A DNA stretch of 64,000 nucleotides from Terebella lapidaria (Eukaryota > Annelida > Polychaeta > Terebellida > Terebellidae), in contig OX424558.1 of the NCBI GenBank assembly GCA_949152475.1, positions 36,032,651 through 36,096,650 on the forward strand. The letters are read 5' to 3'. The translations under genes and the position numbers were made by a program. Position 1 is the first letter of the stretch. Each line of letters opens with the position of its first letter. This document shows, piece after piece, positions 5,799 through 54,496 of the stretch. The notes below the pieces were generated by a model. That model did no database searches. It saw only the letters and a list, made by a program, of their open reading frames with translations, and was not told the DNA's origin.

Positions 5799-8700
5799 TT
5801 ATGTGAACTCGAAGCCATTGACTACGAGCTCTCTGATGCCTGGGTGACCCCCAGATCCAGGCCTGCACTGTTCCATGAAGTAGAAGTAGATGTGGTTCGA
5901 CCTTGTAATGGGGTCGACTTGACTGAAGGTCCAGGTATGTGGACTCTGATTTTGACAGTTGGAGAGAAGGTCGCCATCTGTGCTACTAGATCCATCACAC
6001 GCGAACATCATCTGGCAGGTAGAGGTGGACCGATTTTGATATCAGATACATAGTTACATACCATATGATACGATGGTCAATATGCACGAGTTGATGATTC
6101 GTGTGCACAACATATGTACCACTCTTTAGTGAGAGCAGTGCTACCCGATACACTACATATACATGTATGCACACATCTTACTCTCTCGCGCACATGGATC
6201 TACAATGTATTCTGTGCGCACTATCTATCAAATCGCTCTGCATATTTGAATCAACAGTTTCATGATTCAACACATGGATTTCAATTACTGTTTGTGGGAC
6301 AAGGAATTAATTAGATTTACTATTTTGAAAATCAAAGTCTGGGGCTATGCACAAGTTGTATTCTGTGCGATTTGCCAATCATACCGTTCCTCTTTGATAA
6401 AATCCGAACTGCAGGTAAGCGCCAGTGTACTGGTCATTTAGTATACACCTGCTGTACACATCCATCGACAACAGCTTGTAGGACTCAGCGAAGTTTATTT
6501 TCAAGTAGGCGGCGAGGCCCTCGTTCTGTGAGGCCCATGACCCAGCATGAGAGGGGTCCATGCTGCCGTCGTATGCGTGCACGCAGTCAGATCCGGAGGC
6601 AGTGCTTGACGCCTCACAAGTCACGCCGGCATCTTTGATGACGTTCCTGTAACCTTCAACTTCGATCTCACGAATTCCCGCGTAACAGTAAGGCTCACAG
6701 TTGATCTTGCAGATGGGCTTGAACCTGATGTCGATGGTGCTTGTTCTCACGTTGTCCAGCTCGATCACATTGGGTGTTTGTCCAGCACACTGACTCAGCA
6801 GTTCATCAGGATGCTTGTTCTGCAGGCCGTCACAAGGAAAGTTTTTCTGTTGACAAAATGTAGCTCTTCAAATAAAACTCGCGAATGATACGGAATTCAA
6901 TCACCCTACTACACGCAGCAAGAAGGGCTTTCTATCAATCCATGACAAACAACGATACGAACTTTGCCAACATTCGCAAGAGAACTCAAAAACTCTCGAT
7001 TTATATTCTATTTGTTGTGTACGGAAGCGTATTGCTATCAAGTGTGCAAAAATATTTATCCTGTAGGTACGACTTATATCTCGTATGCAGGACTTAGTGT
7101 CTCGTGTGTACGATTTATTGAATCGTGTGTAAGACTTATCAACTTGTATTTATGACTTACCAACTCAACGTATGGCTTATTAATTCATACGCACGACTTA
7201 TTAACTCATACAAACGAGTTAGTAAGTCGTACTTATGAGATACTAAGTCATACGTATGAGTTAATAAGTCATACATATGAGTTGATAAGCCGTACAGACA
7301 AGTTAGTAAGCCATACGTATGAGTTGATAAGTCGTACATACGACTTAATAAATCGTATGAATGAGATATAACTCATACGTACGAGACGAGAAATTTTACG
7401 CACTTGATAGCAATATGTTTCCGTAATGAAGCGTATTGGTATCAAGTGTTTAAAAAAACACTTTCGTACGTATGACTTATATCTCGCATGTACGACTTAC
7501 TAACTCATATGTACGATTTATCAACTCGTACGTACGAGTATATACAAGTTGATAAGTCAAACATACGAATTAATAAGTTGTACATACGAGATACAAATAT
7601 TTACACACTTGATAGCAATACCCTTCTGTAGTTGTGCATTAGCAAAATAAAAAAGATTCATTCGAGTGTAGATCCCAGACTCACATCTATGATGGTTCCG
7701 TCATCGAAATGGATGTAGGCACCAGAAAACTGTCCCTCTATGGTACACCTACTGTAGATGGTGATCTTAGTCAGAGTGAATTCCTTCAGCATGGTTAGGA
7801 GCAGAGTGGCGCCCTCCTTTTCCTCGTCGACTGCCCAAGCTCCTTCCACACCTGGTGTCATTCGGGCGTTGTACACCCCCGCGCAGTCGTATATCCTGAG
7901 ATCCGGGGCATTACCATGGACAGAGGTACTCGATGGAGTACAATACACTTGCACGGCAAGGAACAAGTTCTTCGGGTTGAGAACTGTGAGAGGGGAGACA
8001 ATTATATCAAGTTTATTTTCACACATGTACATCCGAATGAGGAATGATGTTATTTGAGAAGGATGACGCGCATTATCACGATGGGCGTGTATTAGTATAT
8101 ATTTACCTGTCATCAATAGAAAATGATTAGGAAGGCAGTAGAAACCCAAAAATGAATAACTACAGGAATACAACCTAAGCCCATGCATTTACAAGTAGAA
8201 CACTCTCGGCTGGTAAACAAGCGACCCCTACTGGTGCTACTAACACAAAGTAACAGTTGTCTTTGTGACAAATTATGTAACATTTTGCAAAGCTAGCAAA
8301 TATCAATATTCTAACCAACTTGTGGTTGCAGTGAAAATATTGTGGTGTTCATCTGCCTCGTGATCAGCTACTGATCACATTAAACAACCTGAGATTCGAC
8401 ACATACTAATGGACGTGTAGTTTTTCACGAAATATGTAAACGGAACAAAAACACAAGTCAAAACACAGGATAAACAAATATAAATATGTATAAAGGCATG
8501 CAAACCATGAAAACCATTTGGTGGCCTGCAGAATTTCTGAAACCACCCAAAACCAAATCGATCGAATAGTTACTAGTACACAATATGTGATATACGTACG
8601 AGTCTCTTCGAGTACTGCGGCCTAATTTAAAAGTGTCGACAGTCATAAACATAGAATGTAAAGACGACCAGTTACAGGAGTCTGAATCCATTTTCAAACA

Positions 8701-8977
8701 TTGAATCCAAATGTATATTGATATTGCAAATGTAAAGGTTGTGTTGCCGAGTAAATACTCGTTCACTTTTAAATAAATACATCTGATACAATTTAGATCA
8801 TCGTCGAATATGGAACAAGCACAACAACCTACTGTACATGGGCCTAAAATAATATTGACACAAACAACCTTTGTCAAAAAAACGTTTCAATTCATGCACA
8901 TGGACTAAGTCGTGAATTTTCATGTATAATATACTTACAGCCATGCCGAACATCACAAAAGCAAGTGCTAACTTCAT
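5799..8977 (-). CDS. Gene A: secreted two-domain discoidin-like protein
   Basis: Spliced minus-strand gene. Coding exons are 8977-8939 (start MKLALAFVMFGMA, hydrophobic signal-peptide start), 7969-7685, 6846-6385 and 6011-5799 (stop included), giving about 332 aa. Exon borders show AG acceptors and GT donors, and all coding introns are phase 0. The protein has two similar halves. Each runs from a Cys plus Y-D/N-G region through G-x-W-A and Y-S-R-C-x5-Q-x-G-A-Y to a closing G-I-R-E-(I/L)-x-V-x-G motif, as in F5/8-type-C (galactose-binding-like) domains. I infer secretion and surface or glycan binding; no exact family is recognised. Gene B is its divergent paralogue. Intron 2 contains a foldback element at 7020-7630. 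A 5' UTR exon acceptor lies at 8995/8996. The acceptor of the second coding exon is uncertain: a pyrimidine-rich AG 14 bases upstream breaks the frame. Confidence 0.8.
7020..7630. mobile_element. Foldback element, TACGTA/GTACGA palindromic units, TSD GTTGTG
   Basis: Flanked by an exact 6-bp duplication GTTGTG (7014-7019 and 7631-7636). The ends are inverted repeats: TACGGAAGCGTATTGCTATC at left and, read from the right, TACAGAAGGGTATTGCTATC. The inside is filled by units of about 20-21 bp such as ..CGTACGACTTAT.. and ..GAGTTGATAAGTCGTAC.., carrying GTAC/TACGTA palindromes in both orientations. Near 7395-7460 internal copies of the terminal sequence lie back to back (..CAATATGTTTCCGTAATGAAGCGTATTGG..), so it reads as two elements sharing a junction. 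It lies in an intron of gene A. No coding capacity. Confidence 0.85.
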
Positions 8978-8995
8978 GTCGTTTTTATTCCGTTC

Positions 8996-9105
8996 CTGTT
9001 GAATAAAAGTTGAATAAATAGTTTCACACTTGGGATCATTTCACACATTTGTGATCACAAGCATTTCGACGGAGAAATTATTTCAAATGATGGTAACCTC
9101 GTAAT
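8996..9105. other. Region upstream of gene A coding exon
   Basis: Intron or 5' flank upstream of the first coding exon of gene A. A GT/AG context suggests a non-coding first exon further upstream, which I cannot place. No TATA box is convincing. Confidence 0.3.
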
Positions 9106-9106
9106 G

Positions 9107-9546: not shown

Positions 9547-9594
9547 GCATGTTTTATTGAAATACACAACAACATCAATAGGCAAATAGGTTCA

Positions 9595-9800: not shown

Positions 9801-9804
9801 TACC

Positions 9805-14735: not shown

Positions 14736-14955
14736 TGGTGCCTACCTTTTCCAGGAGCGATGAGCAAGATGAGCGAAAGTTCAATCAACAGTCGTGGGCT
14801 GCAGTTTGCTGAAGTGGTGAAGTTGTCCCTTAAAACGCTGCCTTTTATTCACATGACAGATGTAGTCGCGTTATACATACAGCAAACTGGCACATTTCCA
14901 AGACTGAATCAGCAGAGGGACCAGAAATAACTACCAATCGCACGGAGCTACAATA

Positions 14956-15497
14956 TACGGAGCCCCTGAGGTGACATACCGAAAATATTTATTAATCCGT
15001 GCGCACAAATTAACAAATCGTGCGCACGGTTTACCAATTCGTGCGCACGAATTACCAAACCATGCATACAATTTAACAATTCGTGCCCACGAATTAACAA
15101 TCCGTGGGCACGAATTACTATTTCGTGCACACGAAATACTAATTCGGGGGCATGAAATACTAATTCGTGCCCAGGAATTGGTAAATCGTGCCCATGGATT
15201 AGTTATACCAATCCGTGGCCACGAAGTACTAGCTCGTGCGCATGACATGTTAAATTGTGCCCACGAATTAGTTAAGGTAATCCGTGCACACGATTTAACA
15301 ATTCGTGCACATGAATTACTAATTCGTGCGCACGAATTAGTATTTCGTGGCCACAAATTAGTATTTCGTGGCCACAAATTAGTATTTCATGGTCACAAAT
15401 TAGTAATTTGTGCGCACGAATTAACAATTTTTACGAATTGTTAAATCGTGCACACGGATTAATAAATATTTCGGTATGTCACCTTAGGGGCTCCGTA
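14956..15497. mobile_element. Foldback element, CGTGCGCACG units, TSD TACAATA
   Basis: The flanking duplication TACAATA is seen at 14949-14955 and 15498-15504. The ends are inverted repeats about 45 bp long: left TACGGAGCCCCTGAGGTGAC, right reverse-complemented TACGGAGCCCCTAAGGTGAC, both leading into ..CGAAA(A)TATTTATTAATCCGTG. Between them lie about 20 units of 21-22 bp with a CGTGnnCACG or CGTGGCCACG palindrome and an AATTA spacer. The long ORFs on both strands here (14931-15444) are translations of the repeat. Confidence 0.85.
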
Positions 15498-15499
15498 TA

Positions 15500-16185
15500 C
15501 AATATGCTCGGGTGACAGCTTGACAGTAATTTTTCTTTGTTATTTCCGATTCTCTGTAGGTTTACCTCCAGTGCAGGATTTGTTTTGCAGTTTGGGCAAT
15601 GGCTGTTATAAAAATGTCAGTTATCAAGTTGTTGTTTCCTGTTGCATTCTGCAGGACAAACGAAGTCACAGCAGACATTTAGGCACGGAATGAACAGCAA
15701 TCAGATATTCATAAGCGTCCTGTTTTGCTGTATTATTCTGAACTCGTACATCATACTAACGCATACGACAAACTTGAACTGTTACCATGCTCACAATCCG
15801 AGAGTCATATCGATATATCCAGATTAATGTTCAATATCAGGCAACAGACTGTTCATAAGGAAAATCATAAACCGTCTTTCGGGTTTCACGTGGTAATTCT
15901 TATGAGCATTTCTTACGAACTTTCCTTCATCTACCAGCTACAAGCGTCATGAATTTGAAAATGAGCACTTCCACAGTGTTTGTTTATTATTTCATCAACT
16001 AAGTCTGTATATTTTTGATGTTACGTTTTGCATAAGCTGTATAAATCATTAATATATCTGTATAGATACTGCCAACATGGTCGCCAAAGTAAGGCACTAT
16101 TTCGCTTTAAAAATGCAAACGATATTTTTTCTGAAACACGTATCTTCATTTATATTTTCAGTATGTTTGATCAATATATCATCAC
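15500..16185. other. Non-coding interval
   Basis: Nothing recognisable. Short ORFs (15642-15952) overlap in different frames and resemble no protein family known to me. Confidence 0.35.
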
Positions 16186-16189
16186 AGGC

Positions 16190-17315: not shown

Positions 17316-20300
17316 ATGAAAATAGCACTGGGATTCGCAATGTTCGGCCTAGCTGTAAGTATATGACCCACCTTGGCTTTATGCATCTTGTCATTTTGAA
17401 CCGATTATTGCCTCCTCGCTGATAAATATTGTAAAGCGATTCCAGAGTTTTGACGGGCAGTATATATAATGAAACGTTGCAAGACAATTCCACAATTTCG
17501 TAAACGCATTCAATGGTATACATGTGATTATATATATTGACATCATACAACGATATGATCCATACAATGATATAGTCAATAGCTCACACAGTAGCCTTTT
17601 GGTTTGTGATTCGGTAATCTCTGTTCCTGGCCTATGGGGTTTATTCGGGTTTCTAGATTGTTGGGCAGCTTTGTGTTAATATCATCTGGTACAATGTACA
17701 GTGCAGTAACTATTGCGATTTCTCAACCTTATTCTCGACCATGACCTTATTTCTTGACGCTGACCTCCCAAACTTCTCAAGTTGTATGCTGCATATATTA
17801 TGAAAAGTATTCGTCTGAATATCGTCAATATTCATTTTATTCCAACCGCTTAAAATATCACAAACCCGTGATTTCAAATTTTCAATCCGTGATTTCAACT
17901 TTTCAGTCCAATTCAATCCAATTCAAATTCAACCTATGACCTTTGCATTTTCAACCTTGCGCAATAATAGGGAATTTTGGTCGTACGACCATCGACAGCA
18001 TAGCGAATGATGAAGAATAGACCATACCAAAAATAAGCGAAAACTGCTTTAATCACGAATAGAAGAAGTATTGTTTCTTTTTTCAATTTTGACCTTTTTT
18101 GATACCCTGATCTTGTCGTTCAATTATGAGCTCTAAACTTTCACAGTATTGTTTACATGATACAATCAGTCACATCTCATGGGCGAAAACTGTTTTGAAA
18201 AAGAGGAAAAAGATAACTGGCTTCACATCAACTGGTCTCGAATCTCGGGACACCTGAATTAAAGTCCTGAAATCATGTCCCCGCATTTTCGTACGACTTT
18301 CGGCCAGAAAAAACACATATGATTGAATTATGGCTGAAAATATACAACAATTATTGGACGAATCAATTTTGAAATGAACAGAAGACATGGGCACTTATGT
18401 GATTTTCCTATTCTCCATTGTGTAGACAATAATTGTGGAATGAGCCCCACTCGGATTCCAATTCATCCCGTCAATTTTCTGGCTGATCGGGTTCCTCTCA
18501 TAAATACATACCCGAGCAGACAAAGAAACAAACAGACAGACCCAAATACAATATATTTCATACACCGTATGGCCAAGGATCGTCTATAATAGGATGTCCA
18601 ACTCTGCTCAATGTGGACGTAAAAAAATGTGATTACGTATAATGACGAAATTTCATTTGAGCGTGTCAAAACAGTGACAGGTGTAGTCAGGAGGAAATTT
18701 CACACAGGGTGGAAACGTAGTACAGACTTTTTCTGTCGATTGATATGGCTTCATAATGGTCTAAGACAACCTTTTTCAGAGGGTGTGTAAAATTTTCTCC
18801 CGGGCTAACTTTTTTATGGCCTTTTTCAAAATGGCCGACATCGAAAATTTGGTATTTTAGGAAAAAAAACAAAATTATCCTCCTGGCATGATGCTTTTGG
18901 TCTATTAAGGTGACATTTAGTTACATGGAGATATATTCTTCATAACAATACTAATAATACCGATTCAAACGCCCCGAAAATGGAAAAAATCCAAGATGGC
19001 CGCCAAATTCTTGCCATTTTTACACAAATGTTCATAACTTCCTGCCAAATTGAGATGGGAAGCCAATTTTGGTGTTTGACCCTGGGTTTTGGGGTATGAG
19101 GATTTCAAATATATAACCAGTTTTGTGTTTGGATGGTTTGAAGCTGCTCAGAATCCAAGATGGCTGCCAAATTTTAGCCCGATTTCGCAAATAAGCACCA
19201 ATGACCGACATATATATCAAGATAACAAGCCAACTCTGGTGGCCAGTCCTGGGCTTTGGGGTATGAGGGTGCTACTTGAAGAAATACTCTTGTGTGTAGA
19301 TGGTAACTGGCCAATTTATAGGTGTTCAAAGGCGAAGATAACCATTAATTAATGTGAAACATGTAAACGAACCCGTCTAATAGCACCCACTTGCACAAAA
19401 TCAACAGAATCAACCACTATCAGACAGAAAAAAAATATTTCTGAGCTAACTCCTCGGGAGGTCTGACCAGACTCTCACCAGACCATCCTCACCAGACCAT
19501 CCTCTACATTGGGATTTCTCATCATAGTCACCATGGAGCCCTTACAGAGTGTAACATTAGCAGAAAGGTTGCATTCAATGGGTACAGGTGTTGTATTCTT
19601 CTTCAAGCCAGATATATTCTCGATAACATTCACAGCCACAATCTTCGATTTCTGTCTGTTCAAAGAATCAGTCTGCAGCAGCAACTTTCTGGAAAGAAAA
19701 CACATGAAGTACATCTGTTTGGATCTGTGATCCTTAAGCATCTCCTAATTTTCAGAGCTCTATGATTCAACATCTCCGAAAACGATTTGTCATTTTTTTG
19801 TCTCATTATGTCGGTCAAAGTAGTAACCTTGAAGTCGTCCCAAGGCTCTGCAAGGGCAGCTGGGTCTCAGTATTTGTCCTTTTACATGCGGCAGTGGATA
19901 AAATCACTGACTGCCAGAATCATGAAGAACTTTTGTTTCTCATGAGTTGATCCAGACGACCTCTGATGAAATTCAGCAAGCCTCTGCTGAGATCTCATCA
20001 ATGATTATCAGCTCGAGGTTTTGAAACCTAACCTTTGGGGGCAGTGATGAGCTCTTCAGCAAGTGGTATATACTTTTGTCCCACACCCCTTTGCATGGAA
20101 GCATGGTTCCGCCACTGATGGTAAATGCTTCTTTGCCAGTTGCAGCCACACATCAGAGCTTTGATGATATAAAACTTTCCTTTACCAATATATTGAAAGT
20201 CCCCAGACATTTTTCCATTCATCTTATCGATGTACCACTAGCGAGTATGAATGAAAACTTTCCCTTGCATATTGTTCATGCACTGCATGAGAACTTGAGC

Positions 20301-23300
20301 CTGATTCTATGGGATTGCCAAGATGCTGTGCTCTACTGACAACTGAGCCGCCACTTTATGGGGCAATGTGTGCCAAGGCATCTTCTGCAAGATGATTTTC
20401 TCGAATCTCTTCATGGCTACTTCAACCTGTTTGATATTATTTCCAAATAGCGCTTGCTTTTCTCTAGTAATGTTGCTGATGCTTGTCCTTTTGCCATAGT
20501 AGGAAATGCTCCCACTCATTTGAATCCATTCCAAAGTGGTTAAGATAAAGAACCATGAGATTCTGATAATGTTTCTCACTGTCCCTACAGATGTGCAAGC
20601 TTTACTGAAAGATCTCCGTCTTCAGATCTATCATTTATTCCCAGCCAACTTCGATGAAGCATATGGAACATTGGACCGGTTGTCGTTGTTATGGGTAGAA
20701 TTTTCTTCAGATGGTTCATAATCTCTACCTGGTTTACTATCAACATTGAAGAGGGATACAATTTCAACCAGACAGGTCTTTGAGAATATCTATAGGAGGG
20801 CGTGCATAGTACATGTACATGTACCTGTCTAGTACAGATATACAGTGTAGCCACACGTAATCAATGCCTGAATCTCAGTGGCCCAGCAGTAAGAATGGAA
20901 GTGTCAGTCTGGTACTTGTCGGATCTGCAAGTATCCAAACAACATGCCGACTACAGTTTTTGAGAGGTGTGCCTGTGGCCTTGTAAATAGCCTCCATGAC
21001 ACTCATCTCCCTGTTGGTCAGGTATGTTTTGCCTAGTCATTGTAGCTTATCGTCTTGAAATGAAGCTGAACATCATTTATAATGTCATGTAACTTGCTGT
21101 ATCTCGTCTAATCAACGTCCTCTGTGTTGATATATTTGTTAATAACGTCAACAACTTCCTCATCAAGTTATTTGTCCAGCTCAGGAGAATTTTATACTCA
21201 GATAAGGCAGTGAATGTAAGTACCAATGTGAGGCCAATCTCCTCGTAGAAACTCAATTGAAACATAATAGTCACAGACTTTGCCAATTTGATTTGATGGT
21301 GAAGTGATCATCAATTTCAAGAGTTTTTTTACTATCTGATCAAACATTCTGGCAGCTGTTATATGGTTTTAAATGCCTAATATAATATACTTGGTATTGA
21401 TATGCCTGATATAATATACTTGGGTTTGATTGCTCGGAAAAAAAATTATGCCTGGTAGTGGTACTGTTTATTTTGAAGTGCGAGTGAGTGCTAATTAACA
21501 TGTTTGTTTGCATGTGTTTTATTAATGAGTCCTTATCTTGGCTTTTGGACAGTTGGATAGCTTTAAACTGGCCAATCACCATCTACACACAAAAGTATTT
21601 CTTCAGGTAGCACTCTCATACCCCAAACCCCAGGAATGGCCACCAAAATTGCCTTCTTATTTTGAATATGTGACGGTTATTGGCGCTTATTTGCGAAATC
21701 GAGCTATCGTCTGGCAGCCATCTTGGATTCTGAGCATCTTCGAACCATCCAATCATGAAACTGGTTATTTATTCGGAATCCTCATACCCCAAAACCCAGG
21801 GTTAGACACCAAAATTGGCTTCCTATCTCAATTTGGCAGGAAGTTATGAGCATTCATGTAAAAATGGCGAGAATTTGGCGGCCATCTTGGATTTTTTCCA
21901 TTTTCGGGACGTTTGAATCGGTATTATTAGTATTGTTATGGGGAATATATCTCCATATAACTAAATGTCACCTTAATAGACCAAAAGCATCATGCCGGGA
22001 GGATATTTTTTTTTCTTCCTAAAATACCTAATTTTCGATGTCGGCCATTTTGAAAAAGGCCATAAAAAAGTTAGCCCGGGAGAAAATTTTACACACCCTC
22101 TGAAAAAGGTTGTCTTAGACCATTATGAAGCCATATCAATCGATAGAAAAAGTCTGTACTACATTTCCACCCTGAGTGCCATATGCTCAATATTCCTCCT
22201 GACTAGTGCTCGAAATTTAGTTTTTCATATTGCTTATCAGTTCACTCATAGTGAGAACATACAGAATCGGGCCCTGGGATTGAGCTCAGTGATCTGGGAG
22301 GGCACGCGTGTGGGGTGGAGCCTCATTGTCATCCACAGTTTGTCTCTCTTCCCACTCGCGAAAATATTTTTGATGTGGTCCAAGCACGTGCATGTCTGAA
22401 TGCGTGTTTTTGAGCACATCCACGTCAATAATTAAAAAGGTTACCATTACATCTTTTCAAAAATTCCGGATAGAGAAGCATTATCCATTACCTCGGAAAT
22501 ATCCCGTTTCCAAGGAAATCCGATCAAAACTGTCGGTATGAGAACCATTCTAATATCATTGCAATACTCAACTTTCACTAAATTTGGAGGTAAATGTTCT
22601 GTCCCATAACTCTGAAAAGAATCTATCTTTCACCTGAAAAATACCACCAGAGTTACATCAGAACTTGCTCTCTATTATGTGGGGTTTTTCTTAACGAGGC
22701 GCCAATTTTATTGTCACCATGAGTGGGTCGGTTCTACAGGCGTTTTCGGTGGCAATAAAATGGCATTTCAGGACTTTGAACGGTTGCCATGGCAACAAAA
22801 ATCAACCGATTTCCATGGAAACTGAATATTTTCAACCCGAGAGGTTATTCATCCCATTGCTTAAATTTAAAGACGATTGGATTAAACCCGTTCGAGTTAC
22901 AGCCTTCGATTCACACACAAACATATAAACGGACACTCACAAATCCCGACCCCAATACCACATCATCGGTAACGCGAATGCTGAATATTGTTGAAGAAAT
23001 TTAGGCCGTACCCCCACTCAGTGCAATCACCTATCATTTATTTCAATATATGATTCACAACTCTGCTCATGTCCATTACAAATCGATGTGCCCATTCTGA
23101 TTTTTAGCGCCTGGCACCGTTTCAACACGCTCAAATCAGAATTACGTAATATTACGTAATCACGCCTTTTTAGGCAGAGTTGGATATCCTATTATAGAGG
23201 ATCCTTGGTATGGCCCTGGTGATGTCATCATGATTTTGGCTCCAAATATATGATCGGGCTTCGTTTTCAATACAAAATGTCGTATAATCGCTTTGCAATT

Positions 23301-26003: not shown

Positions 26004-27400
26004 GGCGGTCGAAAAGCGACAAACAATGTTCAATACTGTTCAGTTTGTGAATGTCTCAATCAATGCATGTGTGTATTGAGGGCATCCGTTGGTATATATG
26101 TGTAGCGATTATAGACGGACGACTGAGACAGTTAAAAGAATAATCGCCCTTGGACTCTGCCCCCATCCCCACGCGACTAGCAGACACCGACTGTGACTGA
26201 CGACTGACTTTACATGGACAGACAAGAGGACCTGTGTACTCGGTACTAGGCAGAGTACACGCGACTCGCGTACCAGGCCCGACCAGCCCGACTGATTAGA
26301 ACTCCCCCTAGACAAAGACAGGTCGCGCGAGCAGACAGACGAACGACGCGCGGACGCGTTGCCCCGCACTTTTTTAGAAGAGACTTTGAGGAGAGTACAC
26401 ATAGCAGAGATTTTGTGGATATTGTGGAACAATTATAAAATAACGGGACTGGACTCAGCATCTAACTGGGATCAAATAATATTAATAATTATAAAGGACT
26501 AGGATAACGTGTGGGATAAATGCATCATCGAGAACTGTGTACCCATGTACGAGTGACATCGTTAGGATAACTGAATAAATACATGAACGAGAACTCCAGT
26601 CGTGTTTTGATCCAGGCGTACACCGTGAACTTTGGATAATATTAGAGTGTACGTGAACTCGTGAATCCACACAACAACATTTATTAATTAAAGCGATCAC
26701 CCTGCCAATCGAGAGTCAAGTGACGCCCTAAAAACAGTTGGGGTTCGCAATTGCCCCGGGCTTTAAGGCCAAAAATTGTCCACATATGCATTACACAGTT
26801 GTCAAATTGTGTCCTCTCTACAATGATGAATGTAAGAAGTGCGCTCAATAAATACTTGAATTCACCTTTGTAGTTTCTTTCGTGTCTAATTATGAACGTA
26901 TGGACTGAGAGCGATCCATTGTGGACTATAGATGAATGCACTATGACGGTAGCGGCAATGTGGTATAATCTACTGAAGGTTTTTCTATATCTTCGTATAA
27001 GATGTAGGTGTAATATGTTCATTGAACGGTTCGTCGGTGTCGGCTGGAAACTTCGGCTGTAGTCGGTGCCCTCCGATATGAACAGCTTGTTTTTGATTTC
27101 TTTCCAAAAGCGGCTTGTCATCAGATGGGCAGGTATCTGTGAGAGCTGCTCTGTCGTTGCTCTGTTTCTCACATATGCAGTATACGTGTCACCGGTGGAT
27201 CTCTATCCTACTAAAGACTCCCAGCAACAACTTACATAACAACACAAACATTCCCTATAGCCAAATCAGATTGCGGACAGTCTGATCACTGATCCTGTTG
27301 TTTCTCCTGTGGCTTTTCTGAGAACCGCCATTGATGTTGAAATAGGGAACGGAGTTTGATGTCGGGTGTCGGGCCTTTGGAGAACTTTGAATCACAAAAA
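26004..27400. other. 3' flank of gene B and unassigned sequence
   Basis: Possible 3' UTR of gene B followed by sequence of unknown nature. An AATAAA lies at 26574-26579. The minus strand has a 162-codon ORF (26684-27172), longer than most chance ORFs here, but it has no domain that I recognise and no splice or promoter support. Confidence 0.3.
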
Positions 27401-28498: not shown

Positions 28499-28561
28499 CA
28501 TACTGAAATTGAGTGTGCATACGCTGTTCATTTACCAATATTTATTATTAAATGGCATGTG

Positions 28562-29391
28562 TACCATGGCTGATATATGCCATAGTTTTATTTTCCAGAT
28601 TTCATTCATTTATTTTTATATAAGAAAATAAAATGCACATACTTAATACTAAATATGCGTACTTAATATTAAATACGCGTACATAATATTCAATACGCGT
28701 ACATAATATTAAATACACGTACTAAATAGTATATATGCATACTTAATACTAAATATGCGTACTTACGGTGGCTGATATATGCCATAGTTTTATTCATTAG
28801 TTTTCATTTATTTACGATATTTTCCAGATGGATGTAATACAATACGCGTACTTAATGTTTAAATATGCGTACTTAATATTAATTACGTGTACTTAATATT
28901 AAATACTAATTTGCTAATTTTTAAATTAGCAAAAATGGATGTGGTTATGTTGCTGTGTATGTCTCGTGAAACAAGGTATATATCAAGCGACATGGCGCTG
29001 CAAAAAAGAACAAAATATCTAACTGTCTGGTATTTAATATTAAGTATGTATATTTAACATTAAATACACGCATTTAATATTGAGTATGTGTGAAATAAAT
29101 ATGCGTATTTAATATGAGGTACGTGTATTTAACATTAATTACACGTCTTTAATATTATATACGTGTATTTAATATTATGTACGTGTATTTAATTTTAAGT
29201 ACGCGTATTCAATGTTAAGTACGTGTATTTAATATTAAGCATGTGTATTTAATATTAAGTACGCGTATTAGCTCGTATTTGAACATTAAGTACGCGTATT
29301 TAATATTAAGTACGTGTATTACACCGTCTGGAAAATATCGTGAATGAATGAAAACTAAAGAATAAAACTATGGCATATATCAGCCACCGTA
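28562..29391. mobile_element. Foldback element, TACGCGTA/TTAATATTAA units, TSD CATGTG
   Basis: Exact duplication CATGTG at 28556-28561 and 29392-29397. The left end is TACCATGGCTGATATATGCC; the right end, reverse-complemented, is TACGGTGGCTGATATATGCC. A second, better-matching copy of the end, TACGGTGGCTGATATATGCC, sits inside at 28764, so the left side seems to be duplicated or the result of an insertion next to an old end. The arrays consist of units of about 20 bp joining two palindromes, TACGCGTA (often TACGTGTA) and TTAATATTAA. The left arrays are inverted relative to the right one (about 29040-29325). About 100 bp of unique sequence lies between (28925-29025). No coding capacity. Confidence 0.85.
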
Positions 29392-29397
29392 CATGTG

Positions 29398-38700: not shown

Positions 38701-41700
38701 GGGGCATATAATATCAGGCAAAAAGAAGATAAGACCCAGTATCTCTGTTGATCACAGATGATGACGTTTGGACAAGCGCTATCGGGTATAGATGCGAGAA
38801 TCCGTTATTGAAATATTGTCGGTCAGGCGCCGCAGTTGAGCCCCGGAGGGCATTGATTTCTTTGTACACCGAAACATCGACAGTCGGGCGCTACCAGATG
38901 AAACATGGGAAATTCATTTCCTTCTATTTGATAGAGTGTTATTTTTGGTATTATAATTCGCCGTGTCCCGTGCACTACCTTCCCAAAGTATTACCACCGG
39001 GCATTTGCCTTAAGCGAAACGCAAATAAATCAATCCTTCGTTATTGTTGGTAATAATATAGTCAAGCGTATAGACATGACTCGATCATCATGCAGTTTAA
39101 TACGGTAACTGAAACACTTGAAGCATCGCAAGTATTTCAGTTGGTCGTCCGAGCCGGGTAGACACGTTGAACGATGGGAAGACAAGAAAGACAGGGGAAT
39201 GAACATTTAGTGGACTTCAGATACCTGGGTCGTTTCAGAAATTGTATACTAGACTAGTTTGGTGTCGAGAACGCTAGTCTAGTGTACAGTTCACGGAACT
39301 GCCTGGTCATACCAGCAAAACGGTCCACAGATGTAATGACAAAGACACATGGCTTATTCTTGTACATTGCTCATAGATCGTTGCAGTGGTGATGTTCCAA
39401 CAAGAAGTAACTTTTTGATCGTCTTTAAAAATGATACTGTCAATTTGATGCACTCAAAGCTATGGAAATGGAAAATTTCTGAACCTCCTAAAAGTTCTAA
39501 AGTCTTGGCTAGTTCTTGAACATCGCTCAGTCTTATTAAGCCTTTTTTGTAACATAATGGACATGTCGTGAATGCGCCAGACAACAATTTCCTAATTATG
39601 TATTCTGCAAGATGATCCCAGAAGCATGAGACATTGAGACTTGTCATTACTGATGAAAACTTTACTTTCTCGACCCCCAAACCTGTCCCTCCAGCATGGT
39701 GGTTCATGGCGGCATAGGAGCCTCATCGAAGACGCCAAGTTTGACACGTTGACTAACGTTGAGCTAGAGCGACAGGAGAAGGGGTCCACTGATGGCAGCA
39801 CTGCTGTCCCGCGAGAGGATGACGAGGTGTTCGACAAGCTGGCCAACGGTGCCCAGTCGGTCACACATAGGCGCAAGTGTGAGCTTGTGTTCGGCGTACC
39901 AGAGGCTGGCGGAGTCTCCAGGGTATTCAAGGCCTTTGAGGTGAGATGTTGCGAATAATGGGTTATCTTGAGCTTTGACATGGTCTGTTAGTACGTAATG
40001 TAATCTTGGAGTTCGCTCGATCAGGTCCACAGATGTATCATCCATTTTTATCGGAAATCCTTTTATGCTCGAAGCTCATATGCTCGAGTGTGTTGGTTTT
40101 TCTTTTGAAATAAAATTGTAGAGTTGACACTTTTAGAAAAAAAAACATGTGTTCGAGAGATGAGTCTGACCCACAATTACAAATGGATGTTAAAACCCTA
40201 TATAGGCTATGCCGAACAGAGTAGTTTGTAAGGTTTATCCAGTAAAATTAAGACAATCATGAATGCATATCAAGAAATAGTTTCTCCGACACGTCCAAAT
40301 TTCCGCAGAATAACCGTGTCACTGTGAACCATGTGGAGACCCGCAAGTCTGCTAAGAAGGGATCCCTCGAGTTCTTTACGTCATTCGAGGGAATCCCTGA
40401 TGACGTCATGAACACAGTGAAATCCCTCAAACAGAGCTCCACCACCCGTGACGTCAGCGTGGTCAGCGAATCGGATGTCACCAGCAAAAGTAGCTATTTA
40501 GTACTATTGAGTACTTTTAGTACTATTCTGCGATGACCTGGTTATGTTTTCAATAGACATGTCGAAAGTGGAATATAATTTTTACACTGATGAATATCTT
40601 CATTCTTCATCATACTCTAGCTATCTGGATTCCAAAACACATTTCTGACCTTGATGAATGTCAGCATCTTCTGACGAAGTTCGACCCAGATCTGGATCAG
40701 GGTCATCCCGTAAGTCGATAGTGAATTCATAAAAAAACTATTTGGACATTGGTATTGTGTCATATTTGCATTTATAGAAACTTGAGTAGTGGTAGGTAAT
40801 ATGATAATTTTTAATTTATTTTGTATTTTTTATCATGACATTCTTTCTACAATGTACCTCAGGGTTTCACGGATAAAGAGTACCGAGCGAGACGTTCACA
40901 GATTGCTAATCTGGCTTTCGAGTATAAATAGTAAGGTTCTTCTCCAGATGATCTCACATCCTATATGTTTTACTCCCAACATTCACGGATGGCCTTTTAC
41001 ATAACATTTCTCGCTTCGTTTTTCAGTGGTCGGCCAATACAGCGAGTTGAGTACACCGCGGAGGAAATCAGAACATGGTGGGTCATTATCGCATTCATTA
41101 AACCACGTGGAGTTGAATACTTTTTCGCTTCTAGTTCAGAGATCCACGATTCCCAGTGAATTAATTTTTTTGCGTAATGAAACTTTCTAAAAATTAGCCC
41201 AAGGGCTAAGATAGGTTGCCGGACAATATATAATAGCTATTTTGTTCCGTGGCCTTGAAAATAAGGTCGCTGGTCAAATTCAAAGTCAAGAGAGTATTCC
41301 ACATACCAGTATATGATTTCCTATAGCTCACGATTGATTTCTAAGCTGTAAATTTAATAATAAGCGAGATATTAGCCATTTTGTGCTCTGACCTTGAAAA
41401 TCAGATCAAAGGTCACATCAAGGTCATGACAATATTCAGAATATAGGATTTCCTATAGGTTCACAATTGATTCCTAAGCTCTAAAGCCGATAATGCGCGA
41501 GATATTAGCCATTTTGTGCTCTTAACCTTGAAAATGAGGTCAGAGGTGAAATTCAAGGTCACGAGAATATTCAGCATATATCATTTCCTATATGTCCACA
41601 ATTGATTCCCAAGCTGTAAAATCGATAATAAGTGAGATATTAGCAATTTTGACCTGTGACCTTGAAACTGAGGTCAAAGGTCCAATTCAAGGTCATGACA

Positions 41701-44700
41701 ATAATCTGCATATATCATTTCCTATATGTTCATAATTGATTCCCAAGCTGTAAAGTCAATAACAAGCGAGATATTAGCCATTTTGTCCTGTGACCTTGAA
41801 AATGAGGTAAAAGGTCAAATTCAAGGTCATCAGAATATTCAGCATATATCATTTCCTATATGTCCACAATTGATTCATAAGCTGTAAAGTTGATAATAAG
41901 CGAGATATAAGCCATTTTGTGTTCTGACCTTGAAACTGAGGTCAGAGGTCAAATTCAAGGTCACGAAAATATTCAGCATATATCATTTTCTGTGTCCCAT
42001 TATAAAGCATAGGAGAATTTAACATGGGAAAGTCCCATTTGGGACCTGTCGAGAAAATGAAAATGGCCGCCACACGCAGACCGGCGATTCAGGGGCAACG
42101 AAACTTATACACATCACAGAGGTATATGAGTGGAATCATTTGAAATAAAAATCTCAAAACTGTCTGAACAGTTTTGAGAAAATGGCCGCCAAAGTCAAAA
42201 ATTGGTAATTTTTCATCGAAAATGGCCGCCATTTTGAAGAAAACGCGAAAATCAAAAAACTAAAAAATACCCCCTTTTTGAATTATTTTTAGGTATTTTT
42301 TGTGCAAAATTTCAGAAAGATTCACTCTAAAACTTTAAAGATAAAAATGTGGACGGACGACGCAGACGCCGACGACGCTGACGCCGCCGACGACGACGGA
42401 CGACGGACGTAACGCCATGCCAATAGGTTATCGGACCATAGGTCCGGTAACCTAAAAATAGCACCCATCGCCAACATACAGTGATAGTCTCCACTTTTGA
42501 ACAAGTTTATTAGCAGATGATAAACGTACGACTCAAGTTCAATGTCATCGGGTCTTTAAAACATATATCAACTCTTTTGATATCTGTGCAGGGGGATTGT
42601 GTTCAAGAACCTGGTGAAGCTCTACCCGACACACGCCTGCCGTGAGTGTGTCGACATCTTCAAGGTGCTGCAGGCGGAGTGTCTATACAGCGAGCATAAC
42701 ATCCCACAGCTCCAAGACGTCTCGGACTTCCTCAAAAGTACGCCCGGTTCTCGCTCGACTCGGCATCTTATTGCCATGTCATCGTGAAGAAGGCGAAACT
42801 GGCCTGCATATTTTCTCAAATAATATTCTAGTTATAAATTCATAAGATAAGATAAGATAAGAAAGATGATAAGATGATAAGATAAGATAAGATAAGATTT
42901 ATTTAACGTCGGATCAACAAAATATAAAACATTAGCCAGTTGGCTATTTACCGACATGATCATAATGAGAATGTACAATGAGAGGAAAATGTTTACAAAT
43001 GAACATACATTGATCAGTTGTGCATAATATATTTATACACTATAGAAACATCACATGCGCATCACAGCTCGTTCAAAATACAAACTTTGCAGACTGTACA
43101 AGAACAGTTTGGGCCTGTCCATGCTTTTATCATTCTTTTGAATGTGTTGTAATTTTCACTAGATTTAATTGTGGCAGGCAGTTTATTCCATAAGGCCGAA
43201 CCTTGGTATCTAAGACTTACTTTTCCGTAACTTACGTTGTTATACTTGGGTATTTTGACAATACTAGAATCTTTCATATCATATTTTTTCTCCTTCGCAT
43301 GGAAAAGGTCATCGATATAAGGAGGAACATTATGACACAGCGTTTTATATACATGCATCGCTATGAGTTTCAACCTATGTACATACAACAGTGGTTTTTT
43401 CACATTTCTTTCTCAGTTCTTCATATGATATCGTAGTGCACGTTCTTGTATTTTCTCGATTTTCTTCAAACTAGTTACGCTACAGAAGTGCCAGACTAGT
43501 GGACAGTAGTTGAAGTAAGACAATATAGAACTTTCGAGCAACATAAGTTTCTGTTTTTCCCCCAGTACTGTCGACAGTCTTGCTATTACAGTAAGATTTC
43601 TGCCTGCTTTTTTGCAAATTTCAGACACATGTACATCAAAGTTCAAACTGTGGTCTATGTGAACACCAAGTAGTTTAACACATTTTTGAGGTTCCAGGGT
43701 TATATCACCTATAGTCAGAGGACTATCCATAAACTGTTTGCTGAATGTTATGAATTGAAATTTCGAAGGATTTGCCTGGAGACCATTGTTTTTGAACCAT
43801 GTTATGGCCAAGTTTGCACATTTGGTGAGATTATCAATGATATCTTCCAGTTTGGTACCAGTAACACAAATGGTATTGTCATCTGCATAGTTATATATCT
43901 CACATATGTTTTCCATAAAGTACATTAGATCATTACAATATATGTTGTAGGCAAAAGGACCTATCATTGAGCCTTGAGCTGTGCCTTTTTTTACTGTTAA
44001 CCAATCAATTCGATTGTCCCCAAGCTTCACCCTTTGTTTACGTCCACTAAAGTAGTTGCCCAACAACGTGCATGCATCGTCACTAAACCCATATAAGTTT
44101 GTTGTCGAGGGCTTTCTTACAATTTTCCATCATATCAATTAGAACAGTTTCGCAGCTATAGCCTTTCCTAAACCCTGACAGTCTATTTGACATCAATGGA
44201 TTCATATACCGTACCATTTGCTCATATAGCACAGACTCAAACACTTTGGACAAACATGGTAATACACTAACAGGTCTATACCCCCAGTAATCAGTGCGTG
44301 CTAGTGATATAGAATAGGTTTGTCAATTCAGCTACGCGTCTTTGAAAGAAGTTCAACCGGCTTCCAATTTGAAATGCATCATTTTTAACTGACATGCCAG
44401 TTCATATGAGATGCTGCAGGAACTCAAAAGTTATATTATTATCATAGTGAGATTGCAACCACATTGCCCATGGAAATCCACTGCCATTATGCATTCGACG
44501 TTCCATGTGAACTGTATCCCCGCCTCTGCTTGCAGGGAGGACTGGTTTCCAGCTGAGGCCGGTGGCTGGTCTGCTCTCGGCCAGGGACTTCCTGGCCAGT
44601 CTCGCCTTCAGAGTGTTTCAGTGCACACAGTATGTCAGGCATGGATCTAAACCAGACCACACTGTCGAACCGTGAGTAACTGTTCATTATAACTTCTTCA

Positions 44701-48700: not shown

Positions 48701-51239
48701 ATGCACAAATTGCCATACATGTGGAGAACCTTGCTTTACCGGACACCTTGAGTTCGAACATTCAGGTCATCTGCGGTGCAGTTCAAGGTCTCTCAAAAAA
48801 ACAACACATTTGACTTGAATGTCTTCATGTAATACGAACCCAATCCCTATCCCAAAGCGTTTTGTCTCTAACTGCCAATCCAGATATATGTTGATGCAAC
48901 CATAATCTGGGATTGAACGTTACGTCCTTGTAAGCTAGAAAGGCTATTTGACCTTTCAAAGCCATTGAAATGTAAGTTTACCACTGAAATCATCAGACAT
49001 GATTCCCCGTTCAAGTATTCCAATGTTTAAACACTACCTTGAACTATTCCATGAGTCTCTATTACTACGCACAGCTCCTATCATCACGCATGCTGAATCA
49101 GAATATCCAACTCAAATCATTACTTGAAAGTCAGTGGATCATGTTCTGCATTTATGCTTGATCATTAATTCGCTGTAGATTTAACTTTTTAGCGCAAATC
49201 GTTCAGAAATGACCACAGGGAAGCGTGAACACGACAAGGCACGAAACACTCAAAAGGAAAAAAAGAGATGTGGGTAGTAGTGTGTCAAATATTGATGCAT
49301 TTTGTATTTTATGTGAGTTGCGCTCACAATGTGGCTGCACGGAAGGTTCCCAATGTACAATAAAATACAGCATATTTATTCCAGGAAATACTTTTCTGTT
49401 ATAAGAACAGTACATACAGTGAAATAAAATTGCTCGGAAACGTAACATGATATGACAAAAAGACGTTAAGAATGTCTAACAAAATAATCAGTTTGTGGAC
49501 GCAGGCTACAAACGGGTTTGTGTGTGTTAGCGTGCCGGTAGTCTATCCCCAAGGTTATCATTCCCGCCTTTTTATCTGTTCTTCTAATTTCTACAGTCCG
49601 CATTTTATGTAGAATTGGTATTCCTTGACAACGTTACCTGATTATTCAACCAATGACAATCTCTCTTTTCGACTAGAAGCTCCTCGAGGTTGTTTTCCTT
49701 TCAATCTTTCAATTTTTAATCCAAGATATTCTGCCCCATCGCTTGAAGTATAGAAGTAAAACTTTATCACGCTTATCATTAGTGATCACTATTATTATAG
49801 GGTTTTATATTTTTTGAATCCCTCCTAGCATCTAACAGATTTATTTATTTTTCACGAGGCCGGTGAAAGACCGAAATTTTTGCCTCGATCGCTTCTCCAG
49901 AATCGATAGGCCTACATGTTATAAATATTTTGTCATATATATTAAACACATTTTATATTTACTGTAGCCGTATTATACAATAGTATCAATTATTAATCGG
50001 ATCGACACATCTGTCTCCAATGGTTAGTGTGTTCGTCTCAAATACAAATCTGGATAAGCCCCTATTGTGTCATCGGTCGATCGTCTCATCGCTCAAGGTG
50101 GTCATAACGTTGTTTGTATAACTTTGTAAGTTCGTCACGAACGACAAACGTGGAGGTATTTTTGACCTCTACTCCCGCTCCACCCCTTCTCCCAGTATTT
50201 TCCCTATTCATACTGCATCCAGAAATTCCGTGGGTCATTGGGTGTAAAATGATGTACACAACATCATGTAGACAACATCACACAAATTTCAATTAAGACA
50301 TCCGTTTTTAAAAACCGGTAACAACATTGTTCACGGACTAGATCTAGTGTGGTGTAGATCTATCGCTTAGAACATCATCCAACTGGTGACACTTGACGGC
50401 GACGTAAAGTATTTTATACGGTATTTGTTTCCTTTGTACGGAAGCGTATTACCGCCATGCAAAAATTTTTTTTATCTCGCCGTGGCGAGTTACTATCTCG
50501 CCGTGGCGAGTTAGTATCTCGCCGTGGCGAGTTAGCTATCTTGCCGTGGCGAGTTACTATCTCGCCGTGGCGAGTTACTATCTCGCCATGGCGAGTTACT
50601 ATCTTGCCGTGGCGAGTTAGCTATCTTGCCGTGGCGAGTTACTATCTTGCCGTGGCGAGTTAGCTATCTCGCCGTGGCGAGTTACTATCTCGCCGTGGCG
50701 AGTTACTATCTCGCCGTGGCGAGTTACTATCTTGCCGTGGCGAGTTACTATTCTGTCTTCAATAGCATCGTGACGTAGCCCCCAAGGTCATCTGAGATTA
50801 ATTTCAAGGTTACCAAAAAATGAGCCCTTCACATAATTGTGACTTCCTACATGTTTAGCATATGAACCCATAATACGAACTTATAAAAGTTTCTCAAGGG
50901 TATCTTATGGCCAATCTGTGCAATTTGGTGTAGCTATAACTTTTATTCGAGCACTCGAGGTCTGCTGGAGTCAAGTCCATGTTCATCAGAAAATGCACCA
51001 CACATTAAATTGAATAAATTTAGGAAAGGATAGGATAAATAGCTATCCTGTTCTAACCCTGATTCTATTAATACAAATCCAGCCTCTATCATGAAGCATT
51101 CAGCGTTCAGGCGAGAGTTTTTATAAAGTGGTCATCTCGGGCCAAAATTGGACGGAATTGACCGTACAATATAACGTGAACTGGATATAGGTTCTGGATA
51201 GAACGTTTTACGGTTGTTTGAGCTTATACATATATGGAA

Positions 51240-51620
51240 CCTCAACAGTTTCATTTAAAACCTTTTTGAAAGGTTCTTTGTGTGGAACCTTTTTCACGGA
51301 ACCTCAAAGGTTCTTTGTAAAGAAAATTTGGAATTATGACATGAGGTTTTTGTAAAGGTTCAACCCGGGTTCTTTCACAACCAGTGAATTGAAGCTTTTG
51401 GGGGTACTTCAAGGTACCATCAAATCACGTTTAGGTTCTTTGAAGAACTCTCCCTGATTCGAATATGTTTCCATAAAAAAAATCAGTTCCATATTGACCC
51501 ATTTCAGGTTCTTTGCAGGTTAGGTAAAGAACCTCCAAGTGGTTCAATATTTGTTCACTCCAAAGTACTCAAGTTTCTAAATAGAACATTTCAGGTTCTT
51601 CAGAGAACCTTTCAATTATT
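51240..51620. repeat. Patch rich in AAGGTTCTTT / AGAACCT words
   Basis: Words such as 'aaaggttctttg', 'ggaaccttttt' and 'caggttctt' recur about fifteen times in both orientations at irregular spacing. No coding content. Confidence 0.5.
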
Positions 51621-51949
51621 ATCAAAAGAATATCCTATGGTCCAAAATAAGTTGTTTGAAACACATCAATTTCATATTGAACCTTCGAAAGCTCTATAGT
51701 TAAAAAAGTAGGTGTATATTTATTTATACGCATAAATCGGGAAAATACTCTGAGTCAAAAACTTTTCACTCCATTCATGTAAAATGAACCTTATAAGAAA
51801 CTTATGAGTCCAAACTAGGAGGTAATAAGTCCAAATAAGTCCGACTTGGGACACTGCTGAGACCAATGAAGACCTTATCCAGCCTGGGAACGTGGGAGAG
51901 CCTACAGGGGGACAATGCTGACACAAATGAAAACCTTCCTAAGTAAAAT

Positions 51950-52708
51950 CGATTCCTAAGCTGTAAAGTTGATAATAAGCGAGATATTAGCCATTTTGTC
52001 CTGTGACCTTGAAAATGAGGTCAAAGGTCAAAATCAACGTCATCAGAATTTTAGGCATATATCATTCCTATATGTCCACAATTAATTCCTAAGCTGTAAA
52101 GTCGATAATAAGCGCGATATTAGACATTTTGTGCTCTGACCTTGAAACCGAGGTCAGAGGTCGAATTCAAGGTCACGAGAATATTCCGCATATATCATTT
52201 CCTATATGTCCACAATTGATTCCTAGTCTCTAATCTCAATATTAAGTGAGATATTAGGTATAATATGTCCCATTATAAAGCATAGGAGAATTTAACATGG
52301 AAAAGTCCCATTTGGGCCAAGTTTGGGCCAAATTGGCCCACTTCGAGCGATTCAAGCGCAACGAAATTTATAGACATCATAGGAATACATATGAGGAGTG
52401 TTATGTATCAAAAAGAAAAAAAGTTACTGAACAGATTTTAATAAAATGGCCGCCAAAGTCCAAAATTAGGCATTTTTTGTCCAAAACGGCCGCCATTTTG
52501 AAAAAAAATTGCGAAAATCAAAAAACTAAAAAATACTTCCCTCTCGAAATATTTTTAGGCCTTTTAGTGCAAAATTTGAGAAAAGAACGATCGCAAACTT
52601 TAAAGATAAAATTGTTGACGGACGGACGCCGGACAGACGCCGGACGGACGGACGACGGACGCAACGCCATGGCAATAGGTTATCGGACCATAGGTCCGGT
52701 AACCTAAC
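51950..52708 (+). repeat. Partial copy of the hairpin-ended repeat
   Basis: Two to three tandem units with 'gaccttgaaaatgaggtcaa', then 'cccattataaagcataggag', 'aaatggccgccaaag', the GGACGGACGCC stretch and the end hairpin GGTTATCGGACC..GGTCCGGTAACC. It matches the 41.2-42.46 kb copy in order but lacks the left end. Confidence 0.7.
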
Positions 52709-52759
52709 AATGATAAGAAGCCCAAATTCAAGTCTCCATAGCTCCGTCCCAGAACAAGA

Positions 52760-53330
52760 TGAACCGGGCGTCACAGGGAAGAATCCGTTGGATCTTCCCA
52801 AGGTTTTCTGGTTGGAGGATGGCCTCAAGGTTTCCTTGCATCTCATCCCTTCCTTCCTAGTAAAAACTCAGCTTGCCTTCTCTCCATCGTTGGCCTTCAC
52901 GATCCCTGCCTTGGCTTCGTCCTTAGGCCCGAATCTGATAAAAGACTGTATTCTATGCTCGGTGTGGGTTTTGCGCTTGTTACTTAAGTGAACAAAAAAT
53001 CTGTTTGTGAACAAAAAAACGTCTGTTGTTCATATCGCATCAGTCAATATTCCACCGAGACATACGTTCGCTTCCTATTCGTCCTGGATTCAAAAGTGTA
53101 TCCAAATTTGTTATGACCTGGCCAAGCAGGACTCCACTTGTTCGTTTGAGGTAAGTGCCCATGACATTAGAGCCATGGCGGCCTCCCTATATGGGATGTG
53201 TTCCTCTCGATCAAGTGATGTTGATGGCAATCCCATAACACCTTTACCTCTTTCTACCGTAGGGACTAGATATGGACGAGATGTGAGGGTTACCACCTCA
53301 AGCCCGTGGTAGCCGTGCACGGTGTCGTCA
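52760..53330 (+). mobile_element. Tyrosine-recombinase-like relic (DIRS/Crypton type)
   Basis: Frames on the plus strand contain stretches resembling the C-terminal catalytic half of the tyrosine recombinases common in marine invertebrate genomes: F-L-V-K-T-Q-L, then I-P-A-L-A near 52905, S-W-I-Q-K-C-I..C-Y-D-L-A near 53090, and the catalytic H-x-x-R as S-A-H-D-I-R-A near 53160. It is a broken fossil with a few breaks and no N-terminal half. Whether it came from a DIRS-like or a Crypton-like element cannot be told. Confidence 0.5.
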
Positions 53331-54496
53331 CCCTGTGAGGTGGATGTGGCCCACCTGATATACGTTGCGTTCACTTGTACATATGTTGCTGTTCCACGGT
53401 TTCGAGTTAAGGTTCGTTAGGGAACCCATTGGAACCTGTTTTTCTAAGAGTGAATAATATGTATCTTGCTGTGCAGAAAAGTCGCAGTTTTCATCAGAGC
53501 GACATTGTGAAAGCTGCCACTAGAAATGAGATGCATAAATATCAGTGACCTGGAAAGAATACTCATGATTTAGTGATCCAGTACTGAGTTAGTGGCACAC
53601 ATGTAATTTGAGTGCATGAATGGCGTATCTCATACCAACGAAAAGACATTTTGAACGTAATTCGTGGATGAGATTTCGCATTATACTCTATAATTATCTC
53701 AAACACACACTTTGGGAGGGGGAGTCGATATTCGACGTTGTCGTCGAGTTACTTCTTTTCTCCATCCACATAGATCTAACATATTCAATATTTCTGGAAA
53801 ACGTGTCCAGGCATTGCTCAACCAACTCGTTCACAATCCCAGCGATTCAATGGAAATTGTCATCCCTAGAGCGCATACAGGCCATGCGTGTCAAGAGGGT
53901 TGATTTTATCATCATTTCATCATCAACTCATTAGACAAAATCGATAGGTACATACATCAAATGCGTATGCAACAATCATCAAAATCGTATGAGAAATGGG
54001 ACCTGTAGAACGCTCTACACAAATTTATTTGGGGTGGAGTGAATCCATAGTATCTGCCGACCTACGTTTGAGGAATACAATGACACACCGACGACGAGTT
54101 AGTAACTCGCCACGGCAAGATAGTAACTCGCCACGGCGAGATAGCTAACTCGCCACGGCGAGATAGTTACTCGCCACGGCGAGATAGTAACTCGCCACGG
54201 CGAGATAGCTAACTCGCCACGGCGAGATAGTAACTCGCCACGGCAAGATAGCTAACTCGCCACGGCGAGATACTAACTCGCCACGGCGAGATACTAACTC
54301 GCCACGGCGAGATACTAACTCGCCACGGCGAGATAAAAAAAATTTTTTGCATGGCGGTAATACGCTTCCGTACCTTTGAGAGTGTGGGCCAGCATATCCA
54401 TGTACATCGACAGTTCTTTCATCAGTTCATTCTATCTTCATAACAAACATAAACTTATTATACTACATCTAGTAATAGTTCATCTAATAACGTATA

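Follow-up and report, generated by a model that had tools for sequence, protein, structure and literature searches.

The window analysed here is a stretch of 64,000 nucleotides of the annelid Terebella lapidaria (contig OX424558.1, positions 36,032,651 to 36,096,650). Inverted TAC...GTA ends were confirmed in four elements of this window, E1, E2, E3 and E4, which are flanked by duplications of 6, 7, 6 and 6 bp and carry arrays of units with periods of 21, 21, 20 and 21 bp, respectively. An earlier note on this DNA did not list an additional array pair, E0, which lies at 3478-3541 and 4333-4543 and has a TATGGAAGC end at 4588. In the arrays of E0, E1, E2 and E4, palindromic cores that vary among families are set in a common AT-rich frame, approximately TAWYT-core-ANTTA. 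We lean towards regarding these elements as non-autonomous transposons with IS3EU-like ends, in which the arrays would be multimerised transposase-binding sites. The features are as follows, with the strand given for the arrays to which one was assigned and the units of E0 and E4 read from the end inward.

3478..3541, plus strand: left array of E0, 3 units of 22 bp, TTATCT-GGCGGCCGCC-ACTTAA
4333..4588, minus strand: right array of E0, 10 units, with the right end TATGGAAGCCCATTG...GTGTGAAATAAATTTATCT
7014..7019: left target-site duplication of E1, GTTGTG
7020..7630: E1, a composite element, TACGGAAGCG...CTTCTGTA
7631..7636: right target-site duplication of E1, GTTGTG
14949..14955: left duplication of E2, TACAATA, 7 bp
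14956..15497: E2, a 542-bp miniature inverted-repeat transposable element (MITE) with TACGGAGCCCCTNAGGTGACATACCGAAA ends
15498..15504: right duplication of E2, TACAATA
28556..28561: left duplication of E3, CATGTG
28562..29391: E3, TACCATGGCTG...CAGCCACCGTA
29392..29397: right duplication of E3, CATGTG
50431..50436: left duplication of E4, CCTTTG
50437..54372: E4, 3.9 kb, with long inverted arms and TACGGAAGCGTATTACCGCCATGCAAAAA ends
50473..50751, plus strand: left array of E4, 13 units, TATCT-CGCCGTGGCG-AGTTAC
54091..54335, minus strand: right array of E4, 11 units, inverted copies of the left-array repeat
54373..54378: right duplication of E4, CCTTTG

The window was scanned for TAY..RTA end pairs lying 100-6000 bp apart with at least 13 of 16 end bases matching, arrays and low-complexity ends being excluded. 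A flanking direct repeat of at least 6 bp was found in 5 of the 130 pairs, namely E1 to E4 and a nested register in the inverted end of E2. The other 125 pairs had direct repeats of at most 3 bp, and 84 of the 130 had none at all; 22 of the pairs lie within E1-E4 and 17 within one other element. In dinucleotide shuffles (n = 20, whole window, arrays unmasked), 1 of 937 pairs had a repeat of at least 6 bp. Because duplications of this length are confined to E1-E4 among the pairs and are rare in shuffles, these elements are real insertions and not chance matches. The earlier note, which had described four TAC-ended elements with 6-7-bp duplications and had considered that chance might account for them, is thus borne out within the window, where repeats of at least 6 bp occur only at the elements. 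All three 6-bp duplications (GTTGTG, CATGTG, CCTTTG) finish in TG, perhaps a target preference, although with n = 3 only.

Arrays of 20-21-bp units are present in all four elements, as had been claimed; the picture of interiors made of tandem units does not hold for E4, in which the arrays belong to the inverted arms and the interior is no array. The E1 unit reads TAACT-CGTATGTACG-ACTTAT from the end inward, and the interior of E1 contains a second pair of ends that abut at 7425 and 7424 with TA in common, which is what a tandem dimer or a circle junction might leave. E2 is filled with 19-22 units, the count depending on the mismatch limit, of the form TAATT-CGTGCGCACG-AATTAC (end inward). Its two ends are near-identical (40 of 43 aligned columns within the first 42 bp) and its units differ widely. 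The 20-bp units of E3 read TTAA-ATACGCGTAC-TTAATA, and this element has a second, internal left end at 28764. The arms of E4 are 94% identical over 285 aligned columns, and the arrays form their inner parts. Its 3.3-kb interior includes a repeat seen also at 41.2-42.5 kb; this repeat, common to 41230-42459 and 51947-52711 (the latter inside E4), consists of 134-bp tandem units with a GACGGACGG-type tail. No transposase was found in the 10 of 42 open reading frames (ORFs) of the E4 interior that were searched in Pfam, which gave only weak matches below curated cut-offs. One ORF of this interior (52992-53309) recalls by eye the end of a tyrosine recombinase, for which Pfam gave no support.

E0 is a degenerate fifth element. 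A left end and a target duplication were looked for around it and not found. In 12 end-to-end comparisons, for which p-values are uncorrected, its right end resembled the left ends of E1 (p = 0.004) and E2 (p = 0.002), showed a weaker likeness to E1 right (p = 0.014) and E4 left (p = 0.018), and was unlike the inner left end of E1 (p = 0.40).

The unit consensuses are self-complementary at 20/21 positions in E1, 20/21 in E2, 20/20 in E3, 16/21 in E4 and 18/22 in E0 (p 0.0005 to 0.0105). Twelve other tandem repeats served as controls, hand-picked from the tandem rows of the window (periods 14-29) and not exhaustive; one had p<0.05 (0.024). The 26-bp array at 55677-55876 was considered as a palindromic array and rejected (p = 0.39).

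Beyond their symmetry, the units of several families resemble one another. In the plain consensuses, E1 and E2 have 16 of 21 positions in common (p = 0.0007, dyad-preserving shuffles), and in the oriented ones 15 of 21; E1 and E4 units share 13 identities (p = 0.011), E2 and E4 units 12 (p = 0.043). When units were aligned on their dyad centres and the surplus base of the 22-bp E0 unit was omitted, the spacer flanks of E0, E1, E2 and E4 showed 49 identities out of 66 over the six pairs, in one register. The expectation was 23.9 +/- 3.8 under a composition shuffle (p = 5e-5) and 23.5 +/- 5.5 under a dyad-preserving shuffle (p = 1.5e-4). This identity was stable across half-cores of 4, 5, 6 and 7 bp (p 1e-4 to 3e-4), and across families the central 8 bp of the cores showed marginal agreement (20/48, p = 0.054). 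No relation was shown between the frame of E3 and those of the other four (p = 0.23). The earlier claim that the palindromes differ wholly is therefore contradicted: since the spacer frame is shared, the arrays of E0, E1, E2 and E4 cannot be called unrelated, a description that we keep for E3.

The placement of the arrays is also regular. In 8/8 ends of E1 (internal ones included), E2 and E4, the distance from the end to the first dyad centre is 46-47 bp, and the A/T-rich block between end and first dyad varies among these ends. Successive dyads are about 21 bp, or two helical turns, apart. At the right end of E0, the first dyad lies about 56 bp in, with the unit start at 45. Repeated emergence of unrelated arrays, as proposed in the earlier note, is accordingly not upheld for E1, E2 and E4, which share both the frame and the end-to-array distance. 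Common descent is the simpler account for E0, E1, E2 and E4, because the frame is shared by all of them and the end-to-array distance by the last three; the E3 array may have a separate origin.

Polarity was assessed at one mismatch limit by comparing units, end inward or flipped, with a consensus built from the remaining arms. End inward was the better fit in 13/13 arms, so that array polarity reverses between the ends of an element, weakly in E2. The mismatches were 0.8-1.2 end inward vs 4.5-5.0 flipped in E4, 2.0-3.2 vs 4.6-6.2 in E3, 2.5-4.8 vs 6.7-7.6 in E1 and 2.8-3.0 vs 5.0-5.6 in E0. Of the E2 units, 95-100% retain TG and CA at dyad offsets 1-2, next to two variable central bases, a pattern that fits a protein contact with two half-sites. 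A conservation profile mirrored about the core was significant in E2 alone (p = 0.011) of the five oriented arrays, and we do not use it as a main argument.

We favour, with moderate confidence, the reading that these are non-autonomous transposons with IS3EU-like ends, whose arrays represent putative multimerised transposase-binding sites in long, repetitive inverted repeats. Each unit would consist of two half-sites and be bound by a dimer of the DNA-binding domain that belongs to the cognate transposase, or to a partner protein encoded by the element. With sites two turns apart, the dimers would all sit on the same face of the DNA and keep a set distance from the point of cleavage, so that the arrays could load many protein copies and pair both ends. 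Slippage or unequal exchange would make arrays grow and shrink; together with exchange between arrays, slippage could account for changes in unit number and for the rearranged E1 and E3. The core would drift along with the protein of its own family while the frame is retained, and the elements would have been moved by a transposase of IS3EU type whose gene lies elsewhere in the genome.

A more specific and rather doubtful extension holds that the arrays embody a modular recognition code, in which a conserved frame, two-turn spacing and a fixed end distance accompany a family-specific core (TACGTA, TGCGCA, CCGTGG and GGCCGCC types). If so, the core would serve each transposase as an address, so that it assembles only on the ends of its own family among relatives, and new families would arise when both half-sites change symmetrically. 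Between the plain consensuses of E1 and E2, 4 of the 5 differences form two symmetric transition pairs, as a shift of code predicts. The oriented consensuses retain only one symmetric pair among 6 differences, which lowers the odds of such a code a little.

Several observations weigh against the binding-site reading. The 46-47-bp spacing amounts to two independent cases at most, because the ends of E1 and E4 are related (p = 0.002, uncorrected). Clear first dyads in E3 lie at 76, 77 and 83 bp, dyads nearer the end being 4-mismatch matches only, one of them at 47 in the left end; the frame of E3 also differs from that of the other elements. The length of the frame was chosen post hoc, after the units had been seen. 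Polarity is weak in E2 (3.7-3.9 vs 4.1-4.3 mismatches, a difference of 0.4) and adds little across families, where same and opposite orientation gave equal flank identity in 3/6 pairs and the same orientation was better by 1-2 in the other 3. Positions A7 and T3 of the E2 spacer are as conserved as core positions, and oriented units of E1, E3 and E4 show a core no better conserved than the spacer, which weakens the argument for two half-sites. Counts of conservation are moreover not independent, because units of one array share ancestry. Finally, the 20 window ORFs searched with Pfam, a search that was not exhaustive, revealed neither a transposase nor an autonomous copy.

Among the alternatives, the one that survives best, though we consider it unlikely, is that the arrays are by-products without a binding role, formed by hairpins of palindromes during replication or repair and multiplied by slippage or template switching. 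In its favour, the palindromy of each of the five unit consensuses exceeds that of shuffles, internal rearrangement with duplication of ends is seen in E1 and E3, and a single strand of E2 folds to -177.8 kcal/mol (z -22.5), but a strong fold is expected of any inverted arrays. Furthermore, the two arms of a unit vary independently: no pair of positions showed compensation at p<0.05 in E0-E4 (lowest 0.052; units not oriented). Pairing thus seems not to be kept, and selection for hairpins was rejected on this ground. Nor would by-products be expected to have a common frame, a 46-47-bp spacing or a polarity.

We regard as improbable the possibility that the units bind a host protein, such as a CpG- or methylation-sensitive factor, a nucleosome or a replication protein, for expression, targeting or escape from silencing. 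The arrays are rich in CpG (8.0 per 100 bp vs 3.2 elsewhere; observed/expected 1.93 vs 0.85 for the window), and a frame common across families would suit a single host protein. However, the cores differ among families of one genome, as would better suit family-specific proteins, and the fixed end distance points to a transposition complex. It is very improbable that each family acquired its own palindromes and that their likeness reflects AT-rich convergence, as the absence of the shared frame from E3, the marginal core identities and the ends of E1 and E2 (right ends not significantly alike, p = 0.19; left ends weakly, p = 0.014, uncorrected) might suggest, given a frame test at p ~1e-4 with composition held, the likeness of the E1 and E2 units and that of the E1 and E4 ends.

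The remainder of the window, which has the look of animal DNA, contains at 45.1-45.4 kb an exon for a biopterin-dependent hydroxylase (Pfam PF00351, E 1e-34), a reverse-transcriptase fragment and, at 61.8 kb, a CDK8-like exon recognized by eye only, for which Pfam gave nothing. At 18701-22178 lies an element whose 2.2-kb interior is enclosed by inverted arms of about 620 bp that share 92% identity. Related short inverted-repeat elements lie at 38074-38646, 60095-60649 and 62225-62860, the first and third starting with TATACTCTGATTTTTC; an inverted pair amid many CGATTTCGAAATCG palindromes is found at 63037-63750. The segment 27405-27999 has inverted ends TACCGGGGATC and inner AAGCCCATGGGCTTA-type palindromes without a flanking duplication. 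Inverted duplicates of a region with DUF7402 matches are located at 5795-8188 and 24031-26007.

The comparison with known systems refers to the parts of the published sources that were examined. IS3EU elements have TA..TA termini and usually 6-bp duplications (PMC10045372), and fungal IS3EU families have TAYGG..CCRTA ends with terminal inverted repeats (TIRs) >30 bp (PMC12730594). The likeness to IS3EU/GingerRoot that the earlier note had suggested finds partial support: TA..TA is present at 8/8 outer ends of E1-E4, and the inverted repeats exceed 30 bp here too. The picture is mixed for the duplication, 6 bp in 3/4 elements (7 bp in E2), and for TAYGG..CCRTA, seen at 6/8 outer ends (with TACAG at E1 right and TACCA at E3 left). 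No transposase was recovered from the ORFs searched. Unlike here, no palindromic arrays are mentioned for IS3EU in the literature found, among the matches listed. Of the published groups that we found, IS3EU fits best, on the evidence of the ends and the length of the duplications alone. We speak of IS3EU-like ends and do not take membership of E1-E4 in IS3EU as proven. Styx has 6-bp duplications and an IS3EU-like transposase, and the available part of its description does not mention subterminal or palindromic repeats (PMC10853768).

Other assignments were rejected. Mutator-like elements require 8-9-bp duplications and the P superfamily, including Galileo, 7-8 bp, in contrast to the 6 bp of three of the elements and the 7 bp of E2. 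A Tc1/mariner-type reading, with TA as the whole duplication and an element CGG..CCG, is at odds with the 6-7-bp repeat that all four have outside the TA. The MITEs of a coral study concern piggyBac-like elements and, in the part examined, do not match (PMC2872659). Exact end or array patterns had no match in viral contigs or prokaryote genome contigs, collections without animal genomes as such.

In structure, the elements are of foldback type, a structural class and not a lineage, with long inverted repeats of tandem subrepeats, as in the arms of E4. Palindromic-unit interiors, which the earlier note did not know as a described class, are better seen as subterminal arrays in long inverted repeats, clear in E4, E1 and E3 and weak in E2. 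Foldback-type arms with tandem sites are already known in several superfamilies, including Mutator-like, P-like and one Tc1/mariner-like element (PMC5225508, PMC3688188, PMC3169594). Footprinting supports a binding-site role in Galileo, a foldback-like member of the P superfamily, whose transposase uses its THAP domain to bind one site about 70 bp inside the end and others in the tandem repeats of the long TIRs (PMC3688188). Galileo thus resembles E1-E4 in having long inverted repeats with tandem repeats and an inset first site, ~70 bp there vs 46-47 bp here; its tandem repeats carry extra transposase-binding sites, whereas our array units are putative sites only. It differs in its 7-8-bp duplications and in repeats of ~140 bp in one D. 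willistoni copy, and 21-bp palindromic units go unmentioned in the part available (PMC4168063).

The Mutator-like Muta1 (12-bp repeats, 3-4-bp spacers, 9 copies) and Tm1 (~14-bp repeats) likewise combine a terminal motif with short subterminal tandem repeats and include non-autonomous copies (PMC5225508, PMC3169594), but have 8-9-bp duplications, and their repeats are not called palindromic in these sources save for one Muta1 terminal motif. Short subterminal tandem repeats also occur in 10/12 long-TIR Mutator-like families of Aedes (PMC5225508). Mcmar of a root-knot nematode is reported to have TIRs of direct repeats and palindromes (PMC3169594) but is Tc1/mariner-like, another superfamily than the IS3EU-like E1-E4. 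The abutting ends of E1 recall the circles with abutted TIRs discussed for KolobokP (PMC9587614), although one case proves nothing.

Among the matches listed from the open-access literature, we found no account of 21-bp palindromic arrays that sit on IS3EU-like ends and combine a common frame with exchanged cores, and no description of IS3EU-type end recognition was found in the literature examined. En/Spm carries multiple short TnpA sites near both ends, some of them tail to tail; it has CACTA ends and 3-bp duplications, and its sites are not known to form regular 21-bp arrays. If our reading is correct, some scattered short-unit satellites of animal genomes could be subterminal arrays of such elements, the unassigned 21-bp oyster satellite CgiSat43 (PMC8268682) being a candidate. 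The families described here, with a constant frame and different palindromes, would then offer a readable record of how the binding specificity of a transposon may change, and the foldback design of tandem binding sites in long inverted repeats would extend to IS3EU-type ends.

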